Notes under the pieces: generated by a model | Seen by the model: the letters and a program-made list of their open reading frames with translations, nothing else | Told to the model about the DNA's origin: nothing | The model's database searches: none | Made by a program: the position numbers and the translations under genes | In this document: one piece after another, positions 22,016 to 34,694 of the stretch | Layout of the letters: the number at the start of each line of letters is the position of its first letter | Numbering within the stretch: position 1 is the stretch's first letter | NCBI GenBank assembly: GCA_018060985.1 | Contig: JAGOUZ010000007.1 | Coordinates: 1-34,694 of the forward strand | Direction: 5' to 3' | From: Minisyncoccota bacterium | Lineage (GTDB): Bacteria > Patescibacteriota > Minisyncoccia > Phycocordibacterales > SBAW01 | Length of the DNA: 34,694 bases

Positions 22016-22160
22016 CATAGCGCAAAAAAAGATATCCACAGTTGCAAAATAATTTTCATTGTAATACCAGACTAAATTCTTGATACTGGATAGTAAGGCA
22101 TCGATGTGCTGGTCGAGTCGATGCGAAAACTAAGTGTGTGGCCCCTGGGCTGCAACTAAA
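22016..22160 (+). other. Structured AT-rich gap upstream of the Lys-rich micro-ORF
   Basis: The stretch contains ATATCCACAG (one mismatch to a DnaA box), then TTGATACTGG and GGATAGTAAGG, which could supply a -10. A perfect 7-bp hairpin follows (22098-22104 with 22118-22124), then a small GCCC-CT-GGGC hairpin at 22141-22150. There is no SD before the ATG at 22161. It may be a promoter plus a structured 60-70 nt leader. I recognise no riboswitch class. Confidence 0.4.
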
Positions 22161-26876: not shown

Positions 26877-28271
26877 ATGGCATACTGGCCGACTATCGGA
26901 CTTGAGATTCACGCTGAACTTAAGACGCAGACAAAGATGTTCTGCGCGTGTTTGAATAATCCAGACGAGCCTACTCCTAACAAAAATATCTGCCCGGTGT
27001 GCATGGCGCATCCGGGGACGCTGCCAGTCATAAATAAAGAAGCGGTGCACAAGGTGCTTCTGGTTGGTACCGCACTTGGCGCCACCTTGGCAGACTTTAC
27101 CGAGTTTGACCGCAAGAACTATTTTTACCCAGATATCCCTAAGGGCTACCAACTAAGCCAGTACAAGTACCCGCTCGTCTCGGGGGGCAATCTAAAGGGT
27201 GTGGCGATAACTCGTGTACACCTAGAAGAGGATACAGCCCGCTCTCAGCATATAGGCGAGAAAAGCCTTGTGGACTATAACCGTGCAGGCGTACCCCTTA
27301 TGGAGCTCGTTACCGAGCCGGTTATCCATGATGCCGAGACTGCAGGTGCCTTTGCTCGCGAGCTCCAGCTGCTCCTCCGCACACTTGGGGCAGGGGAGGC
27401 AAATATGGAGAAGGGCGAGATGCGTGTCGAGGCTAATATCTCGATAAGCCCTGACGATACTTTTGGCACTAAAGTAGAGGTAAAAAACCTCAACTCGTTT
27501 AGAAGTGTTGAGCGTGCTATCGCGTTTGAAATTGCTCGGCAGACCAAACTTTTAGATAAAGGCGAGCTGGTCTCGCAAGAGACTCGCGGCTGGGACGAGA
27601 CAAAACAGGAAACATTTTCGCAGCGCAAAAAGGAGTCGAGCCACGACTACCGCTACTTCCCAGATCCGGACCTACCTAAGCTCGCGCTGTCCGAGATCCC
27701 AGAATTTTCTAAAGAATCACTTACAAAGGAACTGCCCGAATTGCCGTGGCAGAAGCGCGAGCGATATGCGTCTCTCGGACTCAAGACGGAAGATGCAGAT
27801 ATGTTCGTTGCAGACGATCGCTTCGGTTCCTTATTTGAAGAGGCAAGCAAACTTGAACCAGGTGCAACTAAGCGTATTGCCAATTACATAAGCTCCGATA
27901 TTGCTGGCTTGGTTGCCAAGGTAGGGGAGCAGGGCTTGCAGAATATTTCCCCAAAAGGACTCGCAACACTTATGGTGCGCGTTTCTAAAAATGAGCTCTC
28001 TTCTCGCGGCGCTAAAGATACGCTCGCAGAAGTATTTACTACAGGTGGCGACATTATTGAAGTCTCAAACAAGTACACCCAGCAAAGCGACACCGGCCAA
28101 CTCGAGGCTGTAGCGCGCGAAATTGCCGCTGCTTATCCACAGGTGGTGGCAGACTATAGAGCGGGTAAAGAAGCAGCACTGCAGTTCCTTATTGGGCAGG
28201 GAATGAAGCAAACAAAGGGTTCTGCGAACCCCGCAGTTCTGAAGGAGGTCTTCACTAAGATTCTCGTCTAG
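26877..28271 (+). CDS. gatB: Asp-tRNA(Asn)/Glu-tRNA(Gln) amidotransferase subunit B
   Basis: A 464-residue protein with all GatB landmarks: PTIGLEIHAELKT, the zinc-site Cys pairs FCAC and CPVC, NYFYPDIPKGYQLSQY, HLEEDTARSQH (the usual HLEEDAGKx region), DYNRAGVPLMELVTEP, GEMRVEANIS, KNLNSFRSVERAI, and SHDYRYFPDPDLP. The C-terminal tRNA-binding GatB/YqeY domain ends FLIGQGMKQTKGSANPAV. With GatA and GatC, which are not in the window, it converts mischarged Glu-tRNA(Gln) or Asp-tRNA(Asn). It phosphorylates the acyl group with ATP and uses ammonia channelled from GatA. It starts at ATG 26877, set by the promoter and the MAYWPTIGLEI start. Confidence 0.97.
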   Translation: MAYWPTIGLEIHAELKTQTKMFCACLNNPDEPTPNKNICPVCMAHPGTLPVINKEAVHKVLLVGTALGATLADFTEFDRKNYFYPDIPKGYQLSQYKYPLVSGGNLKGVAITRVHLEEDTARSQHIGEKSLVDYNRAGVPLMELVTEPVIHDAETAGAFARELQLLLRTLGAGEANMEKGEMRVEANISISPDDTFGTKVEVKNLNSFRSVERAIAFEIARQTKLLDKGELVSQETRGWDETKQETFSQRKKESSHDYRYFPDPDLPKLALSEIPEFSKESLTKELPELPWQKRERYASLGLKTEDADMFVADDRFGSLFEEASKLEPGATKRIANYISSDIAGLVAKVGEQGLQNISPKGLATLMVRVSKNELSSRGAKDTLAEVFTTGGDIIEVSNKYTQQSDTGQLEAVAREIAAAYPQVVADYRAGKEAALQFLIGQGMKQTKGSANPAVLKEVFTKILV

Positions 28272-28326: not shown

Positions 28327-29130
28327 ATGGATGAACTAGAAATCGCGGGGCAACGATATCTATCGACAAGGCGTGCTGGTAAAGAGCACAAGTACCATTC
28401 CGATTATATCGGCCAGCTTATACGTGGCGGCAAAGTTGTCGGTAAAAAGGTGGGTCGTTCTTGGTATGTTGAAGCCGCATCTCTGTCAGCATATTTAAAC
28501 GGTGCAGTAAGCGCTCCTGCAGTTGCGATGGAGACCCCCATTGTAAAAGTTACTCCGGTACCAGCGCGCGAAATTGTTCGTGATGTTGTTAAAGAAGAAG
28601 AGGTACCCCAGCAGCCGGTGGAGCAATCTGTAACACAACCAGTTACCGCTGAAGTGCTTGAAGAAAAAATTGAGCAACAGGTGGTAGAAGAAAAGATAGA
28701 AGAGTCGCAAAGTATTCCGGATGCTCCTGTACCAATAAAGATTTCTAAAGAGTCAGTTAGTTTTAATGCAACCCCTGTTCGCCGTGTTCCGCTTGATGAC
28801 GCTCACAAGATTCAGATCAATGCAGCCACAAAGTCGGACGCATACAAATCAGGAGGCCTTCGATATATAAGTGATGACGCGCCAGTGCTGCCCGTGCAAA
28901 CGAAAAAGATCGCGGTAGTAACTAGTGAGGAGGTCCCCGTGTATGAATCAGAATATTTGCCTACAGTGGAGGAAATAAAAAATAATAGAACCGGCGCTCT
29001 CTCGCTCGCAGCGCTCGCCATCGTAGGAATAATTACATTCTCTATTACTGCAGGGGCATCAGTGGCGATAAGTTCTCAGACTATTATTGAAGAAGGGCAG
29101 GTAGCCGGTGCAGGATTCACGCTCAAGTAG
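28327..29130 (+). CDS. Winged-HTH-like protein with C-terminal membrane anchor
   Basis: A 267-residue protein. Residues about 8-58 resemble the excisionase/MerR-type helix-turn-helix: YHSDYIGQLIRGGKVVGKK, then VGRSWYVEAASLSAYL, with the wing Trp. The same pattern opens the giant gene at 29597. A Pro/Val/Glu-rich, acidic linker (about 65-220, including VLEEKIEQQVVEEKIEES) leads to one membrane helix (about 224-250, LSLAALAIVGIITFSITAGA) and a short outer tail. No signal peptide precedes it, so the HTH should stay in the cytoplasm. It may be a membrane-tethered regulator or a structural linker for the surface fibre encoded next; the function is unknown. A terminator closes the gene. Confidence 0.7.
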   Translation: MDELEIAGQRYLSTRRAGKEHKYHSDYIGQLIRGGKVVGKKVGRSWYVEAASLSAYLNGAVSAPAVAMETPIVKVTPVPAREIVRDVVKEEEVPQQPVEQSVTQPVTAEVLEEKIEQQVVEEKIEESQSIPDAPVPIKISKESVSFNATPVRRVPLDDAHKIQINAATKSDAYKSGGLRYISDDAPVLPVQTKKIAVVTSEEVPVYESEYLPTVEEIKNNRTGALSLAALAIVGIITFSITAGASVAISSQTIIEEGQVAGAGFTLK

Positions 29131-29167
29131 CAAAAGTAAACATTCGACATCATTTCTGAAATGAGTC

Positions 29168-29203
29168 AAAAGCTCCCTCCCAAATCGTTGGAGGGAGTTT
29201 TTT
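29168..29203 (+). terminator. Intrinsic terminator after the HTH-TM gene
   Basis: CTCCCTCC (29173-29180) pairs with GGAGGGAG (29190-29197) across a 9-nt loop, followed by six T. Flanking AA/TT and a G-T pair extend the stem. Confidence 0.92.
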
Positions 29204-29596
29204 AAATTTTGATGCACCAATCTATTAAAACTGGCAGTACATATGTTTGTAAATCCCGGTAGATCCTTTAAAAAAATCGACTCGATTAGCCGAGAACTCG
29301 TATGGCCAAGACGAGAACAGCTTATTTAGCAATGAATCTCGGATATCCTTGGCGCAGAAATATCGGGAAAGATTTTTTACACTTTTTTTAAATTTTTTTA
29401 GGTGAAATTTTTCATATTTTATCTCTTGCGTCCTAAAAACCGTTGTTCTGGAACGTTATTTTGCTATTCGTTTTTTGATGAAATTATTCATGCTATCCAC
29501 AGAAAAAAATATTTTTGTCACTGAATGAAAAATTTGTACGTAGAATTATTACTGGAGCAACCGAACTAACTGCAAATATTAAAGCTTTATCGGATC
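29204..29596. other. AT-rich intergenic region before the giant fibre gene
   Basis: These 393 nt hold no convincing gene. They contain long T-runs around 29374-29425, CTATCCACAG near 29491 (one mismatch to a DnaA box) and TAGAAT near 29541 as a possible -10. A 29-codon ATG frame at 29302-29391 (MAKTRTAYLAMNLG...) has no support. The region probably carries the promoter and regulatory sites of the giant gene; its length and AT content are unusual in this compact genome. Confidence 0.5.
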
Positions 29597-32500
29597 ATGA
29601 GTTCTTACAATAAATTTAAAAATGATGACGGGAAAATGGCCCTATCTGCTAGGGATGCAGCTCTGCGTCTTTCCTGCGCTCAGGACTATGTAGGGCGCCT
29701 CTGTCGTGAAGGCAAACTACGTGGCTTTCAAAAGGATGGCCAATGGTATGTAGAGCTGCGCTCTCTTACGGAGTTTGAAAAGGCACGTGTCGCTGCGAAG
29801 TTGGAACGATCAGAAAAGCTTGCAGAGCAGCGCCGCCAGGAGAGTCTTGAGTATCGTAAGCGCCACAATCTCGTTCAGGGGCAGGAGCAAAAAGCGATTA
29901 TTTCAGCTCCTACAGTTTCGAAGCATAAAGGATTTTTTAATGCGATACCGCAAAGTGTTTCTCTTGCCGTAGGTGCTGCAACGCTACTCCTTGCTGTCGT
30001 ATTTGCAGGAGCAACGTCGTTGCCGCAGTTTGGTAGTCAGGCGCAGGTTGCCGCTATCGGGCATGTGCAGTCGCCATTTTTTGGTATTACACCGGGTACG
30101 TTTACACTTCCAACTCATTCCACCACTTCGCTTTCTCAAAGTTTGATCGGTAGACTATTTTCATCTCTCTTTGGAAAAAAAGACCATGTTGTTGCAGTGA
30201 CACCATCAACACCATTTGTTTCCTCTCATGTATCTGCACCCTCTGCACAGACTATTGTGCAAAATACCTATCCGGTTGTTGAAAGGATAGTACAAACATC
30301 TGTCACAGGAAATTGGGTAACGACAGACATGCTCGTCGTTATGCTGGGCGATTTGCAGCGTTCGATGCGTAAAGATATGCGCACTACGATCGAACAGATG
30401 CTCGATCTCGACTTCTTTACTTCGACGCAATCGGGCGGCGGAGGCATTACTACTATTACTGATGCAGATGTACCGGACACTATAACCGCAAGTAATTATT
30501 TGCCACTTGCTGGCGGTACGCTGACCGGTGGCCTTATTGGCACCGATGCATTGTTTAGTAATGCGACCACTACTAACTTTGCAGCAACGGGAGTTGCCTC
30601 AACTACATCCCTCGTCATTTCTGGCGCAGGCGGCAGCGGTACGCGCTGTTTGCAGGTAGGTCCGACAGGCATTGTTTCTGCAAACGCGTCGGGCTGCGGC
30701 GGTTCGGGTGCACCAGGCGGCAATGATACTGAGGTGCAGTACAACGACAGCGGGTCGTTCGCAGGCAATGCAGCATTTACCTTTAATGACACCACGGGCC
30801 AGCTTTCCGTTACGAATATTCTGACGAGCGGTATTACCGCTACGTTTGCAACTTCTACGCGCCTTGCGATTATGACCGCGCCGATTGCGCCCTCGTACAT
30901 TGCGACGTCATCTACCGCGTCAATCTTCCCATTTGCATCGTCGACGGCGATTACGGTGTCGGGTACCGGTTACTTTGACACTGCTTCTACTTCGAATCTC
31001 ATAGTATCTTCGCTCGGTTCGTCAGCAGGACAGTGCCTCACCATCAATTCTTTCGGCGGAGTAACGACTGTCGCATGCGGCTCGGGGGGAGGTGCAGCCT
31101 TTCCGTTTACTCCAGCTGGATATGGAAACTCAACGTCAACAACTATTGGATTTACAAACGGTATTCTTTCAACCGCATCCTCAACCTTTACCTCAACACT
31201 TTTCCTTTCATCACTTACAAACTCTGGTTTGGCTGTAAATGCATCGGGCCAAGTGTATGCTGCGGCAACTACTACATTCTCTTCTCCACTCGTTTACTCA
31301 AACGGCAATGTAACGATCCAGACCGCAAACGGTTCTCAGAGCGGTGTATTGTCGTCAGCAGACTGGACGACATTTAACAACAAAGTTTCTTCATCATCAC
31401 TCGCATCATCAATTACGGGAATATTCCCATTTACGTCGACAGGATACGGCAACAGCACGTCGACGACGATTGGATTTACAAACGGTATTCTTTCGACCGC
31501 TTCATCAACCTTTACCTCAACGGTTATTCTTTCAACACTTTCAAACAGCGGACTTGGTGTTAACTCGCTCGGTCAGGTGTATGCAGCCGCAACTACCACG
31601 TTCTCTGGGGCACTTGCATACAGCAATGGCAACGTAACCTGCAACACCGCATCAGGCTCTGTCTTTGGCTGCCTCACTTCGGCAGACTGGACCACCTTCA
31701 ACAGCAAAGTTTCGTCGTCATCTCTTTCTTCGCTCTTCCCATTTACACCAACCGCAATCGGCAACGCCACCTCAACGCTCATGCAGTTTACCGGCGGCCT
31801 TATCGCAAATGCATCTTCTACGATCACCGCACTCAACACTATCAATGCGACCTCAACTAACTTCTCCGCAACAAACGCCTCTACGACTAATCTCACCATC
31901 TCTTCGCTCGGTGGCGCAGCGGGGCAGTGTCTCACGGTCACATCTTCAGGCAGTGTTATTACGACAACCTGCGGCACTAATGGCGCAGCGTTCCCATTCA
32001 CACCAGCAGCGTGGGGTAACTCAACCAGCACAACGATCGGCTTCACCAACGGCATAATCTCTAATGCCTCTTCAACCTTTACCTCAGCTCTTAACTTCTC
32101 AAACTTCTCAAATGGCTCTCTTGCCGTAAACAGCGCAGGGGGAGTTTACACCGCTGCAACTACGACCTTCGCTTCGCCACTTACATACGCAAACGGTGTC
32201 GCATCAATACAAGTAGCCAATGGCTCACAAAATGGCTATCTCTCTAATACTGACTGGACTACCTTTAACAACAAAGTATCTAGCTCCTCACTTGCTTCTG
32301 CAGTTACAAACGCGTTTCCGTTTACTTCATCAACCAACTTTGGCACATTGGCAAATGCAACCTCAACCACCGTGTGGTTCCAAAATGGTCTCCAGGCATC
32401 AACAACCGCACGTTTTAGCTCGCTCACAGCTTCGTATGCAACGACGACCTTTGCATCAACGACCGTTCTTTCTGCAAATACAATTTGTTTGTCGACTGAT

Positions 32501-34694
32501 TGCCGCACCTCATGGCCAACAGCAGGCGCAAATTTTGGCCAAGCATGGGAGATTTTCGGCAGCACCTACCTTGCGCCGACTTCAACTATCAAAGGCATTA
32601 TTGCAGCAGCTTCTTCAACCATTGGCAGTGGCGCTCAAGCAGGTGGCCTCACGATTTCTGGCGGCGCGACAACAACCGGTAATCTTATCGCTCAGGGCAA
32701 TATAACGGTAACAGGCAGCTTCTTTGGAGCTAACCTAGGTACCTGCAATACCTCTGCAGACAAGCTGCTGTGGAACAATGGTCAGTTCACTTGCGGTACA
32801 GACCAGACAGGTGGCGGTGCAGGCACCGATGTTAATTGGACATTCTTTAATGGCTCGGGTGTTCGTCCGGCAACAACCACCAACCAGGTGGTCATTGGCG
32901 GATCAGCAACCAGCTCACTGGTAAGCCCACTTGCAAAGCTTGGCGTCTTTGGCGGCGCATCTATAGACTCTGCAACGACTACAAACCTTGCGGTTATAAG
33001 CGTGCTTTCCTCGATTCTATCTACAAACGTAAATGGTTCAGTGCTTACGACCACCGTGTCTGCACCGCTCCAATTCTCTGCGAACACGCTTTCGATAAGC
33101 CAGGCAAATGGTTCAACAAACGGATATCTGTCTAACACGGATTGGACACTCTTTAATAACAAAGTATCGAGCTCATCTCTTTCATCTTCGGTTACTTCGG
33201 CGTTTCCTTTTACGCCAACGGCAATTGGCAATGCAACGTCAACGCTGATTCAATTCACTGCAGGACTTATTGCAAACGCATCATCAACTATCGGTAGCGG
33301 TGCACAGGGGGGCGGCCTGACTGTTGCGGGCGGCGCTACAACAACCGGCACTCTCTACGTAGCAGGAACCGGAACATCGACTATTAATGGTGGGTTGCAG
33401 GTGTTTGGCAACTTGGTGCCGGGTGCAAGTGATATCTACTCTCTTGGTACTGCTGATTACCCATGGCAACACTTGTATGTCGGTGCAAATTCTCTGTATG
33501 TTAACGGTCAACAGGTGGTGTCGACCAATGCTGGCGACGACGTCGTTATCAAAGCTAGTCCAAATGAGAATCTCGTTATTCAGTCTAGCGGAACCGCAAA
33601 TATCGAAATCAATCCTATAGCTGGACAGATACAGCTAAAAAACACGATCAATGTTTCTGCGGGTAAAAGCATTACCACTTCTGACCTTTCGGCATTGCCA
33701 GTTCCGAACGGTATTGCGGCTGGCAATATCACGATTGCGACAAATAGTATTTCAGCAACAAACCTAAATGGTGGTATCTCACTTACCCCTTCAGGCACGG
33801 GAGGTGTGTATGTAACCTCAGGTAACCTTGGTGTCGGCACAACTTCTCCGCTCGCCAAGCTCGACGTATACGGCAACGCAATACTCTCTGGTCAGAACCG
33901 TTATATCAACTTCGACTTCACTGTTGGTTCCTCAGGATACGGCTTCCGCGACAATGCCGGCATTCTCGAATATAAAAACAGTGCCGGCGCTTGGTCACCA
34001 TTTAGCGGAGTATCAACATCTTCTTTGAGCTATTGGTATAGTCAAAATCGCGATTGGGAACTCTCGGGTGGGTACCTTACACCAACTTCGACTGTACACG
34101 TGCTCCGCATGCCAGCAGGCTTTCTATCTCAGGCCTCGTCTACTATCGGCAATGGCACTGCAACGGGCGGTCTCACTATTAACGGCGGCGCAACAACAAC
34201 GGGCAACAGCGTATTGCAGGGAGCACTAACCGTTGCAGGGAATACGGGGCTTCAAAATGCTACGTCAACGACTCTCGCTATCTCTTCAATTACAAGCGCA
34301 ATACTTAAAACAAATTCTAACGGCTCAGTAGTAGCCGCAGTCCCAGGTACCGACTACCTCACCTCAGCAAACCTCACCTCTGCCTTCCCATTCACTCCAG
34401 CAGCCTGGGGCAACAGCACTTCTACCACCATCGGCTTCCAGAGCGGCATCATTGCTAACGCCTCTTCAACCTTTACCTCAACACTCTTCCTCTCATCTCT
34501 CACCAACGGTGGCTTGGCAGTCAACGCAGCAGGCCAAGTCTACAAAGCAGCCACCACCACCTACTCAGGTGCTCTTACCTACAGCAACGGCAACGTTACC
34601 TGCAACACTGCATCAGGCTCACAAGCAGGTTGTCTCTCTACAACAGACTGGACCACCTTCAACAACAAGGTATCGAGCTCATCACTCTCAGCAC
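29597..34694 (+). CDS. Giant HTH-TM-tail-fibre-like surface protein (N-terminal part)
   Basis: Open from ATG 29597 to the window end: 1,699 codons without a stop; I checked the frame at several points. Residues about 14-58 are the winged-HTH-like domain shared with the gene at 28327 (DYVGRLCREGKLRGF, WYVELRSL). A charged Arg/Glu/Gln helix covers about 60-100 and a membrane helix about 119-139 (QSVSLAVGAATLLLAVVFAG). The rest is Ser/Thr/Asn/Gly-rich with very few charges. It has tail-fibre motifs: YLPLAGGTLTGGL, repeated DWTTFNNKVSSSSL, DIYSLGTADYPWQHLYVG and NLGVGTTSPLAKLDVYG, the last typical of fibres that end in an S74 chaperone. It is probably an anchored extracellular fibre or adhesin. 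The start has no SD; an in-frame ATG at 29636 is an alternative. Confidence 0.85.
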   Translation, partial: MSSYNKFKNDDGKMALSARDAALRLSCAQDYVGRLCREGKLRGFQKDGQWYVELRSLTEFEKARVAAKLERSEKLAEQRRQESLEYRKRHNLVQGQEQKAIISAPTVSKHKGFFNAIPQSVSLAVGAATLLLAVVFAGATSLPQFGSQAQVAAIGHVQSPFFGITPGTFTLPTHSTTSLSQSLIGRLFSSLFGKKDHVVAVTPSTPFVSSHVSAPSAQTIVQNTYPVVERIVQTSVTGNWVTTDMLVVMLGDLQRSMRKDMRTTIEQMLDLDFFTSTQSGGGGITTITDADVPDTITASNYLPLAGGTLTGGLIGTDALFSNATTTNFAATGVASTTSLVISGAGGSGTRCLQVGPTGIVSANASGCGGSGAPGGNDTEVQYNDSGSFAGNAAFTFNDTTGQLSVTNILTSGITATFATSTRLAIMTAPIAPSYIATSSTASIFPFASSTAITVSGTGYFDTASTSNLIVSSLGSSAGQCLTINSFGGVTTVACGSGGGAAFPFTPAGYGNSTSTTIGFTNGILSTASSTFTSTLFLSSLTNSGLAVNASGQVYAAATTTFSSPLVYSNGNVTIQTANGSQSGVLSSADWTTFNNKVSSSSLASSITGIFPFTSTGYGNSTSTTIGFTNGILSTASSTFTSTVILSTLSNSGLGVNSLGQVYAAATTTFSGALAYSNGNVTCNTASGSVFGCLTSADWTTFNSKVSSSSLSSLFPFTPTAIGNATSTLMQFTGGLIANASSTITALNTINATSTNFSATNASTTNLTISSLGGAAGQCLTVTSSGSVITTTCGTNGAAFPFTPAAWGNSTSTTIGFTNGIISNASSTFTSALNFSNFSNGSLAVNSAGGVYTAATTTFASPLTYANGVASIQVANGSQNGYLSNTDWTTFNNKVSSSSLASAVTNAFPFTSSTNFGTLANATSTTVWFQNGLQASTTARFSSLTASYATTTFASTTVLSANTICLSTDCRTSWPTAGANFGQAWEIFGSTYLAPTSTIKGIIAAASSTIGSGAQAGGLTISGGATTTGNLIAQGNITVTGSFFGANLGTCNTSADKLLWNNGQFTCGTDQTGGGAGTDVNWTFFNGSGVRPATTTNQVVIGGSATSSLVSPLAKLGVFGGASIDSATTTNLAVISVLSSILSTNVNGSVLTTTVSAPLQFSANTLSISQANGSTNGYLSNTDWTLFNNKVSSSSLSSSVTSAFPFTPTAIGNATSTLIQFTAGLIANASSTIGSGAQGGGLTVAGGATTTGTLYVAGTGTSTINGGLQVFGNLVPGASDIYSLGTADYPWQHLYVGANSLYVNGQQVVSTNAGDDVVIKASPNENLVIQSSGTANIEINPIAGQIQLKNTINVSAGKSITTSDLSALPVPNGIAAGNITIATNSISATNLNGGISLTPSGTGGVYVTSGNLGVGTTSPLAKLDVYGNAILSGQNRYINFDFTVGSSGYGFRDNAGILEYKNSAGAWSPFSGVSTSSLSYWYSQNRDWELSGGYLTPTSTVHVLRMPAGFLSQASSTIGNGTATGGLTINGGATTTGNSVLQGALTVAGNTGLQNATSTTLAISSITSAILKTNSNGSVVAAVPGTDYLTSANLTSAFPFTPAAWGNSTSTTIGFQSGIIANASSTFTSTLFLSSLTNGGLAVNAAGQVYKAATTTYSGALTYSNGNVTCNTASGSQAGCLSTTDWTTFNNKVSSSSLSA
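30926..34694 (+). repeat. FPFTP modules of the giant fibre gene
   Basis: In-frame modules begin with FPF(T/A) at 30926, 31100, 31424, 31736, 31991, 32315, 33203 and 34385. The complete modules at 31100 and 31991 are both 324 nt, and the one at 31424 is 312 nt. A full module reads FPFTP, GNSTSTTIGF, SSTFTS, AVNxxGxVYxAATTT, a Cys- or Ile-containing strand, then DWTTFNNKVSSSSL. Others are cut short or interrupted by long non-repeated inserts. DNA identity stays high in patches, such as ATTGGATTTACAAACGGTAT in the modules at 31100 and 31424, which points to recent duplication or recombination. Confidence 0.85.
31361..34687 (+). repeat. Five copies of the DWTTFNNKVSSSSL segment
   Basis: 42-nt copies start at 31361, 31685, 32252, 33140 and 34646. 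Variants are FNSK in the second and DWTLFNNK in the fourth. Each is preceded by G-x-L-S-(S/N/T)-(A/T), as in the tail-fibre motif GYLSxxDWxxFNxK, known in phage and bacterial fibre proteins. Four of the five are followed within about 5-20 residues by a new FPF module; the last copy runs to the window edge. Confidence 0.85.

Follow-up and report, generated by a model that had tools for sequence, protein, structure and literature searches.

Membrane-tethered winged-helix pairs behind gatB in Minisyncoccota, one partner heading a giant fibre: a possible control circuit for surface fibres

Two neighbouring genes on contig JAGOUZ010000007.1 of a Minisyncoccota bacterium (assembly GCA_018060985.1) each encode a winged helix-turn-helix (HTH) domain on a single predicted membrane helix; the first, here the short gene, ends soon after this helix, while the second, the fibre gene, continues into a giant fibre. 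We propose, giving it about an even chance, that the pair are membrane-tethered DNA-binding proteins which control their own genes, the fibre gene being additionally driven via a DnaA-type box. The architecture of both proteins, the inward orientation of their heads by charge, class-wide synteny and two conserved cis elements can be read directly from the sequences. The window analysed is the whole contig (C5, 34,694 bp) of a genome of 722 kb over 12 contigs, whose closest named relatives are Adlerbacteria and other Parcubacteria. Comparisons drew on a family sample of 41 genomes, a class sample of 143 and a phylum-wide sample of 117, the last searched with a narrower HTH model, and on 57 short, 93 fibre and 629 other genes of relatives.

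A preliminary description, made from the window alone, had noticed that both neighbours share the motif DY(I/V)GxLxRxGK...WYVE...SL. This holds well: in the form D-Y-[IV]-G-x-L-x-R-x-G-K ... W-Y-V-E ... S-L, 13 columns stay invariant when the two window domains are aligned with two paralogues from elsewhere in the genome. The paralogous fibre on contig C6 of this genome lies above the cutoffs of both Pfam HTH_17 (50.1 vs 27 bits, E=3.3e-13) and TIGR01764 'excise' (39 vs 28.8 bits, E=7.6e-10). The isolated window fibre domain falls 0.8 bit under the curated HTH_17 cutoff (26.2 bits vs 27, E=1e-5), and the window short protein alone reaches 15.7 bits against the same 27 (E=0.018-0.12). The Pfam search gave HTH_17 plus other weak matches only, with no match to Trans_reg_C (OmpR/PhoB-type winged HTH) or to HTH_25 (Xre-type, as in RodZ). 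Searching the PDB by sequence gave nothing related, matches coming from fold comparison alone. AlphaFold2 models of both N-termini are winged HTHs (predicted local distance difference test, pLDDT, 93-98), and the best-matching PDB folds are DNA complexes of Xis and BldC (template-modelling score on target about 0.72-0.79, root-mean-square deviation about 1.3-2.4 Å), whose α1-α2-wing-α3 fold the window domains match. Foldseek E-values for these matches are about 0.02-0.4, above 0.01 because the domain is small (about 50 residues); the search also lists TraN, RdfS and RacA-DNA (5i44).

The BldC residues that contact bases and phosphates are taken from PMC5859096, and their residue-by-residue mapping onto HTH positions is our own. 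The equivalents of these contacts are the most conserved positions of the domain in short and fibre relatives alike: D26 (97% of short, 99% of fibre), Y27 (97%, 98%), R33 (97%, 96%), W46 (100%, 93%) and L31 (at least 93% in both), with position 30 being Q in 97% of short HTHs and Q, R or K in fibre HTHs. The BldC base contacts K26/R30 are replaced by D26/Q30 in the short HTH, and by D and Q/R/K in the fibre HTH. The preliminary description had allowed that the domain might lack a DNA-binding surface; the contact positions are, instead, its best preserved feature, and we infer binding to DNA.

Positive-inside counts (K+R) place the HTH in the cytoplasm in 51 of 57 short and 69 of 93 fibre relatives, and both window proteins are predicted to be N-in with a cytoplasmic HTH and one membrane helix. 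The architecture originally described therefore stands, a short HTH protein with a C-terminal membrane helix beside one in which HTH and membrane helix precede more than 1,500 fibre residues, and the AlphaFold2 models and charge counts support a DNA-binding-type domain joined through the membrane to an extracellular fibre. Within its disordered cytoplasmic linker the short protein carries a linear motif, Y..D...L.P, found class-wide; it may be a binding site for a partner protein.

Searching the relatives for conserved pairing revealed it to be class-wide and syntenic behind gatB. The HTH domain is present in 34 of 41 family genomes, in 76 of 143 class genomes and in 12 of the 117 phylum-wide. 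In 28 family genomes a short gene encoding HTH and membrane helix is followed, 200-850 bp downstream on the same strand, by a gene for HTH, membrane helix and fibre (or by its contig-cut start). Four more family short genes sit at contig ends (G032, G020, G014 and G012); a true or apparent exception is G024 (L147), with a short gene but no HTH fibre in the DNA examined. In G003, tallied as HTH-less, a contig end removes the HTH of a 4,388-aa fibre frame. Every pair, 28 in the family and 21 outside it, has its short gene 0-191 bp behind gatB on the same strand, the usual order being secA-(dsbD)-holin-obg-gatB, then short, then fibre; fibre-type HTH genes are also found alone elsewhere in genomes. 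One locus (L134:12349-12669, minus strand, G001) has a 106-aa HTH-only frame without membrane helix between the two genes.

By our tally 59 of 92 class HTH frames are at least 400 aa long and 33 of 92 at least 1,000 aa, the longest being 6,621 aa. At several loci outside the family the second gene is only about 246-264 aa and encodes HTH, membrane helix and a conserved outer domain, which has no Pfam match in these gatB-linked genes and which (L058, L059, L068, L070, L077, L084, L106) ends FSDxVxV...GxIxPxF...YxFVxVP. Of the original proposal the HTH pairing is therefore conserved but the giant fibre is not general, nor is it essential to the arrangement, since several distant relatives make do with a second gene of only about 255 aa; the giant fibre is probably one elaboration of an older gene encoding HTH and membrane helix. 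On an HTH tree of 165 domains and 68 columns, too few columns to settle individual forks, the labels short and fibre require 6 changes vs about 52 in shuffles, and by sequence the two HTHs are separate ancient lineages.

The region between the genes (29204-29596), singled out in the preliminary description as a place where the domains might bind, does contain conserved cis elements. An intrinsic terminator follows the short gene, and the fibre gene therefore probably has its own promoter. Gibbs sampling yields a 22-bp consensus, cgAtATCTCGGcTAancGAgAt, and its core ATCTCGG/CCGAGAT occurs upstream of fibre genes at 4.0 per kb in the family and 2.1 outside, upstream of short genes at 2.4 and 3.8, against 0.21 for 357 other genes of these loci, i.e. 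it is 10-20-fold denser before both kinds of HTH gene than before others. In genome-wide counts, made by pattern search, exact copies of TAGCCGAGATA number only 2 in the genome's 722 kb, together forming an inverted repeat upstream of the C6 fibre. Over 41 genomes there are 27 exact copies, of which by our count 11 lie in fibre-gene upstream regions, while the other 16 are close to chance (about 13 by our estimate). At C6 the palindrome lies between divergent genes and forms an almost perfect inverted repeat, and at loci outside the family such as L063 and L065 it directly precedes a DnaA-box-like site. That the motif is a mere terminator is ruled out at C6 (divergent region, no T-run) and at L063 and L065 (palindrome adjoining the box, no T-run), and is possible for some distant loci. 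The suggestion that the arrangement serves DNA uptake found no support: an uptake sequence system would be expected to show many genome-wide copies, and we reject it as the motif is not a genome-wide repeat.

The second element is a DnaA-box-like site. Of the 28 family intergenic regions 26 contain TATCCACA, where 0.2 would be expected, most copies lying 102-114 bp before the fibre gene begins, and a relaxed DnaA-like box is found upstream, in sense/antisense orientation, in 70/2 of 93 fibre genes, 2/0 of 57 short genes and 8/8 of 629 other genes. Distances from box to -10 fall into two groups, 40-41 and 49-51 bp, which differ by roughly one helical turn. Such a one-strand site, phased to the -10 box, stands before most HTH-fibre genes (window 29493-29502; L039-L158), and suggests replication-linked expression of the surface fibre. 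DnaA itself would be the protein that binds it: the genome's own DnaA carries the canonical GRDHTTV helix, and its dnaA-dnaN gap contains TTATCCACA, TATCCACAG and TTATCAACAG, of the same sequence types as the window box, with TTATCAACAG also found upstream of the C6 fibre. TATCCACAG recurs in the window at 22033-22041, in the intergenic gap upstream of secA (22298). A replication origin between the two genes is disfavoured, there being a single box at a fixed distance from the promoter, and the box cluster lying at dnaA-dnaN on another contig.

We envisage the following assembly. Each protein would hold a BldC/Xis-type winged HTH in the cytoplasm on one inner-membrane helix, the short protein exposing almost nothing outside and its partner bearing the outer part, in this lineage a giant fibre of the S74 type. 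The most likely targets of the HTH heads are the CCGAGAT/ATCTCGG sites before both kinds of gene, which would give autoregulation much as in ToxR/CadC, while the fibre promoter would additionally use its phased DnaA-box-like site as an activator site, so that the fibre would be made in step with the replication cycle. Incidentally, the locus would be kept at the membrane, at the site of fibre insertion. The direction of control, the autoregulation itself and any response to contact or another signal are inferences. ToxR and CadC share the layout of cytoplasmic winged HTH, linker, one membrane helix and outer domain, and a likely role in surface-gene control; their winged HTH is of the OmpR type. 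The pair differs in belonging to another winged HTH family and in what lies outside, a giant fibre in one partner and next to nothing in the short one, and as Trans_reg_C is not matched it can be called only ToxR/CadC-like, not a family member.

Several observations weigh against control of this kind. In the window the palindrome is degenerate, and a promoter scan found no full sigma-70 consensus match before the fibre gene; outside the family, a CCGAGA-type site is upstream of only 30 of 60 fibre genes, and terminator-like hairpins supply part of the motif enrichment. The outer tail of the short protein, only about 28 aa, is too small for a sensor domain. The HTH has a net charge of only about +3, and the position of the BldC base-contact lysine is here an invariant aspartate, unusual in a DNA-reading helix, which would equally fit a conserved protein partner. 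A bolder extension we hold doubtful: that this is a Paceibacteria-wide connector from envelope to DNA, in which a core, gatB-linked winged-HTH membrane protein and winged-HTH-headed giant fibres bind a dedicated operator, the state of attachment outside alters, mechanically or stoichiometrically, the state of DNA or promoter inside, and DnaA times fibre production to replication.

It is also conceivable, if unlikely, that DNA binding by the heads serves mainly to fasten the chromosome to the membrane, or to the fibre-bearing pole, and not to regulate genes. RacA of Bacillus, whose DNA complex is among the fold matches together with the architectural winged HTHs Xis and RdfS, likewise has a MerR-like winged HTH running into a long helix, as the fibre head does (36 residues), and a chromosome-envelope link is a possible function here too. 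Many fibre copies per cell would mean many tethers, and the short gene, beside secA, obg and gatB, resembles a core cell-biology gene. RacA, however, has no membrane helix and no outer part, and its sites are spread over the origin region; the sites described here are not spread over the genome, both exact copies in 722 kb being at one fibre gene and the remainder in the 41 genomes being near chance level.

The aspartate and the moderate charge speak for a second idea, to which we attach a similarly low probability, in which the HTH makes no contact with DNA but grips a protein of the cytoplasm, for instance a scaffold, a translocase or a chaperone, and thereby anchors the fibre in its place from inside. 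There is precedent in RodZ, a membrane HTH protein of Xre type that binds MreB rather than DNA and shares with the pair the order of cytoplasmic HTH, single membrane helix and outer part; the second conserved cytoplasmic motif, in the linker, would suggest protein partners, and secA lies in the neighbourhood. Such a plug would not account for an operator-like motif before both kinds of HTH gene and not before their neighbours, nor for the conservation of wing W and R together with the recognition helix, and the fold matches are DNA binders; in contrast to RodZ the domain is of BldC/Xis type and accompanied by operator-like DNA motifs.

How the fibres are built bears on the remaining alternatives. 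The C6 fibre is complete (3,206 aa), with two tandem HTHs, one membrane helix and the same fibre repeat as in the window, and has near its C-terminus a Peptidase_S74 chaperone domain, of the endosialidase-chaperone kind found on phage tail spikes, as have several relatives; the window fibre meets the contig edge before its C-terminus, S74 being seen in the paralogue and relatives. Contig C6 (L006, L158) has four Peptidase_S74 matches. One of these is a C-terminal fragment of 531 aa at the edge of the contig, which may be part of the window fibre or of a different one. Fibres that carry a signal peptide and the same repeat or S74 tail also exist (L160, L161, L168 of 4,562 aa, L171 of 2,191 aa, L175 of 1,265 aa), three of them having come from the S74 search. 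The preliminary description had raised the case that HTH-less homologues might be equally common; among N-terminus-intact genes with the C6-type repeat in 41 genomes we count about 20 with an HTH head vs two with a signal peptide, most of the remaining genes having lost their N-terminus at contig ends. Since signal-peptide fibres of the same type, such as the last three, exist, export does not need the HTH, and the domain might do no more than fold on the cytoplasmic side and so hold the fibre as a type II membrane protein. This is very improbable, as an inert leader would retain neither near-invariant recognition-helix and wing residues class-wide nor a syntenic partner gene built alike. Release of the HTH as a transcription factor by S74 autocleavage or signal peptidase, after MYRF, which joins DNA-binding domain, membrane helix and S74, is least credible of all and is rejected on topology: S74 is found at the C-terminus of relatives, but it is on the far side of the membrane from the HTH and not, as in MYRF, on the DNA-binding side, so that cleavage outside leaves the HTH in the membrane, and the family alignment shows no consistent A-X-A site after the helix.

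Table 1. Positions in the window of the paired genes, their parts and the control sequences between them
Feature	Positions	Strand	Basis
gatB, constant neighbour upstream of short gene	26877..28271	+	synteny (28/28 family pairs, 21/21 outside)
Short gene, 267 aa: winged HTH, acidic disordered linker, membrane helix at C-terminal end, 21-aa outer tail	28327..29130	+	open reading frame, AlphaFold2, relatives
Winged HTH of short protein, residues 8-58; D26 Y27 G29 Q30 L31 R33 W46 (nearly) invariant	28348..28500	+	alignment, fold search
Linker motif GLRYISDDAPVLP; family consensus GLTYISDDEPLFP, class-wide Y..D...L.P	28855..28893	+	alignment
C-terminal membrane helix of short protein, residues 221-246	28987..29064	+	AlphaFold2, relatives, charge counts
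Extracytoplasmic tail of short protein, family pattern V.EGKPASV.FS, two β-strands predicted	29065..29127	+	family alignment, AlphaFold2
Intrinsic terminator behind short gene, fold z -4.57, inverted repeat I2	29168..29202	+	RNA fold, inverted-repeat scan
Candidate operator GACTCGATTAGCCGAGAACTCG, degenerate copy of family motif ATCTCGGCTAnnCGAGAT	29279..29300	+	Gibbs motif, enrichment, genome specificity
Second ATCTCGG half-motif copy	29336..29342	+	motif search
DnaA-box-like site CTATCCACAG, in family about 105 bp before fibre start	29493..29502	+	family conservation
-10-like hexamer TAGAAT, 48 bp from DnaA-box-like site	29541..29546	+	sequence, family spacing
Leader CCGAACT...TCGG directly before start codon, recurrent in family	29561..29593	+	family intergenic comparison
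Fibre gene: winged HTH, long helix, membrane helix, fibre; 1699 aa seen, open at contig end	29597..34694	+	open reading frame
Winged HTH of fibre protein, residues 12-62	29630..29782	+	Pfam, alignment, AlphaFold2, fold search
Long helix of fibre protein, residues 54-89, 36 residues, running on from HTH; possible coiled coil	29756..29863	+	AlphaFold2
Membrane helix of fibre protein, residues 119-139	29951..30013	+	relatives, AlphaFold2
Juxtamembrane motif SPFFG, outer side, conserved	30071..30085	+	family alignment
Fibre body, Ser/Thr-rich, repetitive, cut by contig end	30086..34694	+	sequence, C6 comparison

The leader before the fibre start codon, of the general form CCGAA...TTCGG, has no stable RNA fold in the window, a TRF scan of the fibre gene gave no tandem repeats and a tRNA scan found none. 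Contig breaks fall within fibre genes in many genomes (L119-L158, and window contig C5), and the fibre content of such assemblies is therefore underestimated. A 2,631-aa HTH-headed fibre gene of Zambryskibacteria (L103:9980-17872) includes a match to an intein-splicing domain with an NYN domain inside.

The domain agrees with BldC/Xis (TIGR01764, HTH_17) in fold, helix order, wing and length of about 50 aa, but the known members are small and soluble, whereas here it sits on the membrane, joined to up to thousands of outer residues. No description of such a paired system was found in the literature searched, most subscription papers being outside its reach. Bacteria of the candidate phyla radiation are thought to live attached to hosts, and little is known of how they build this attachment or control it. 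In this setting a syntenic membrane-tethered DNA-binding pair with operator-like motifs and a DnaA-type box would provide a concrete control circuit for surface fibres. It is possible that the pair forms a direct link between cell surface and DNA, one partner of which bears a giant surface fibre.

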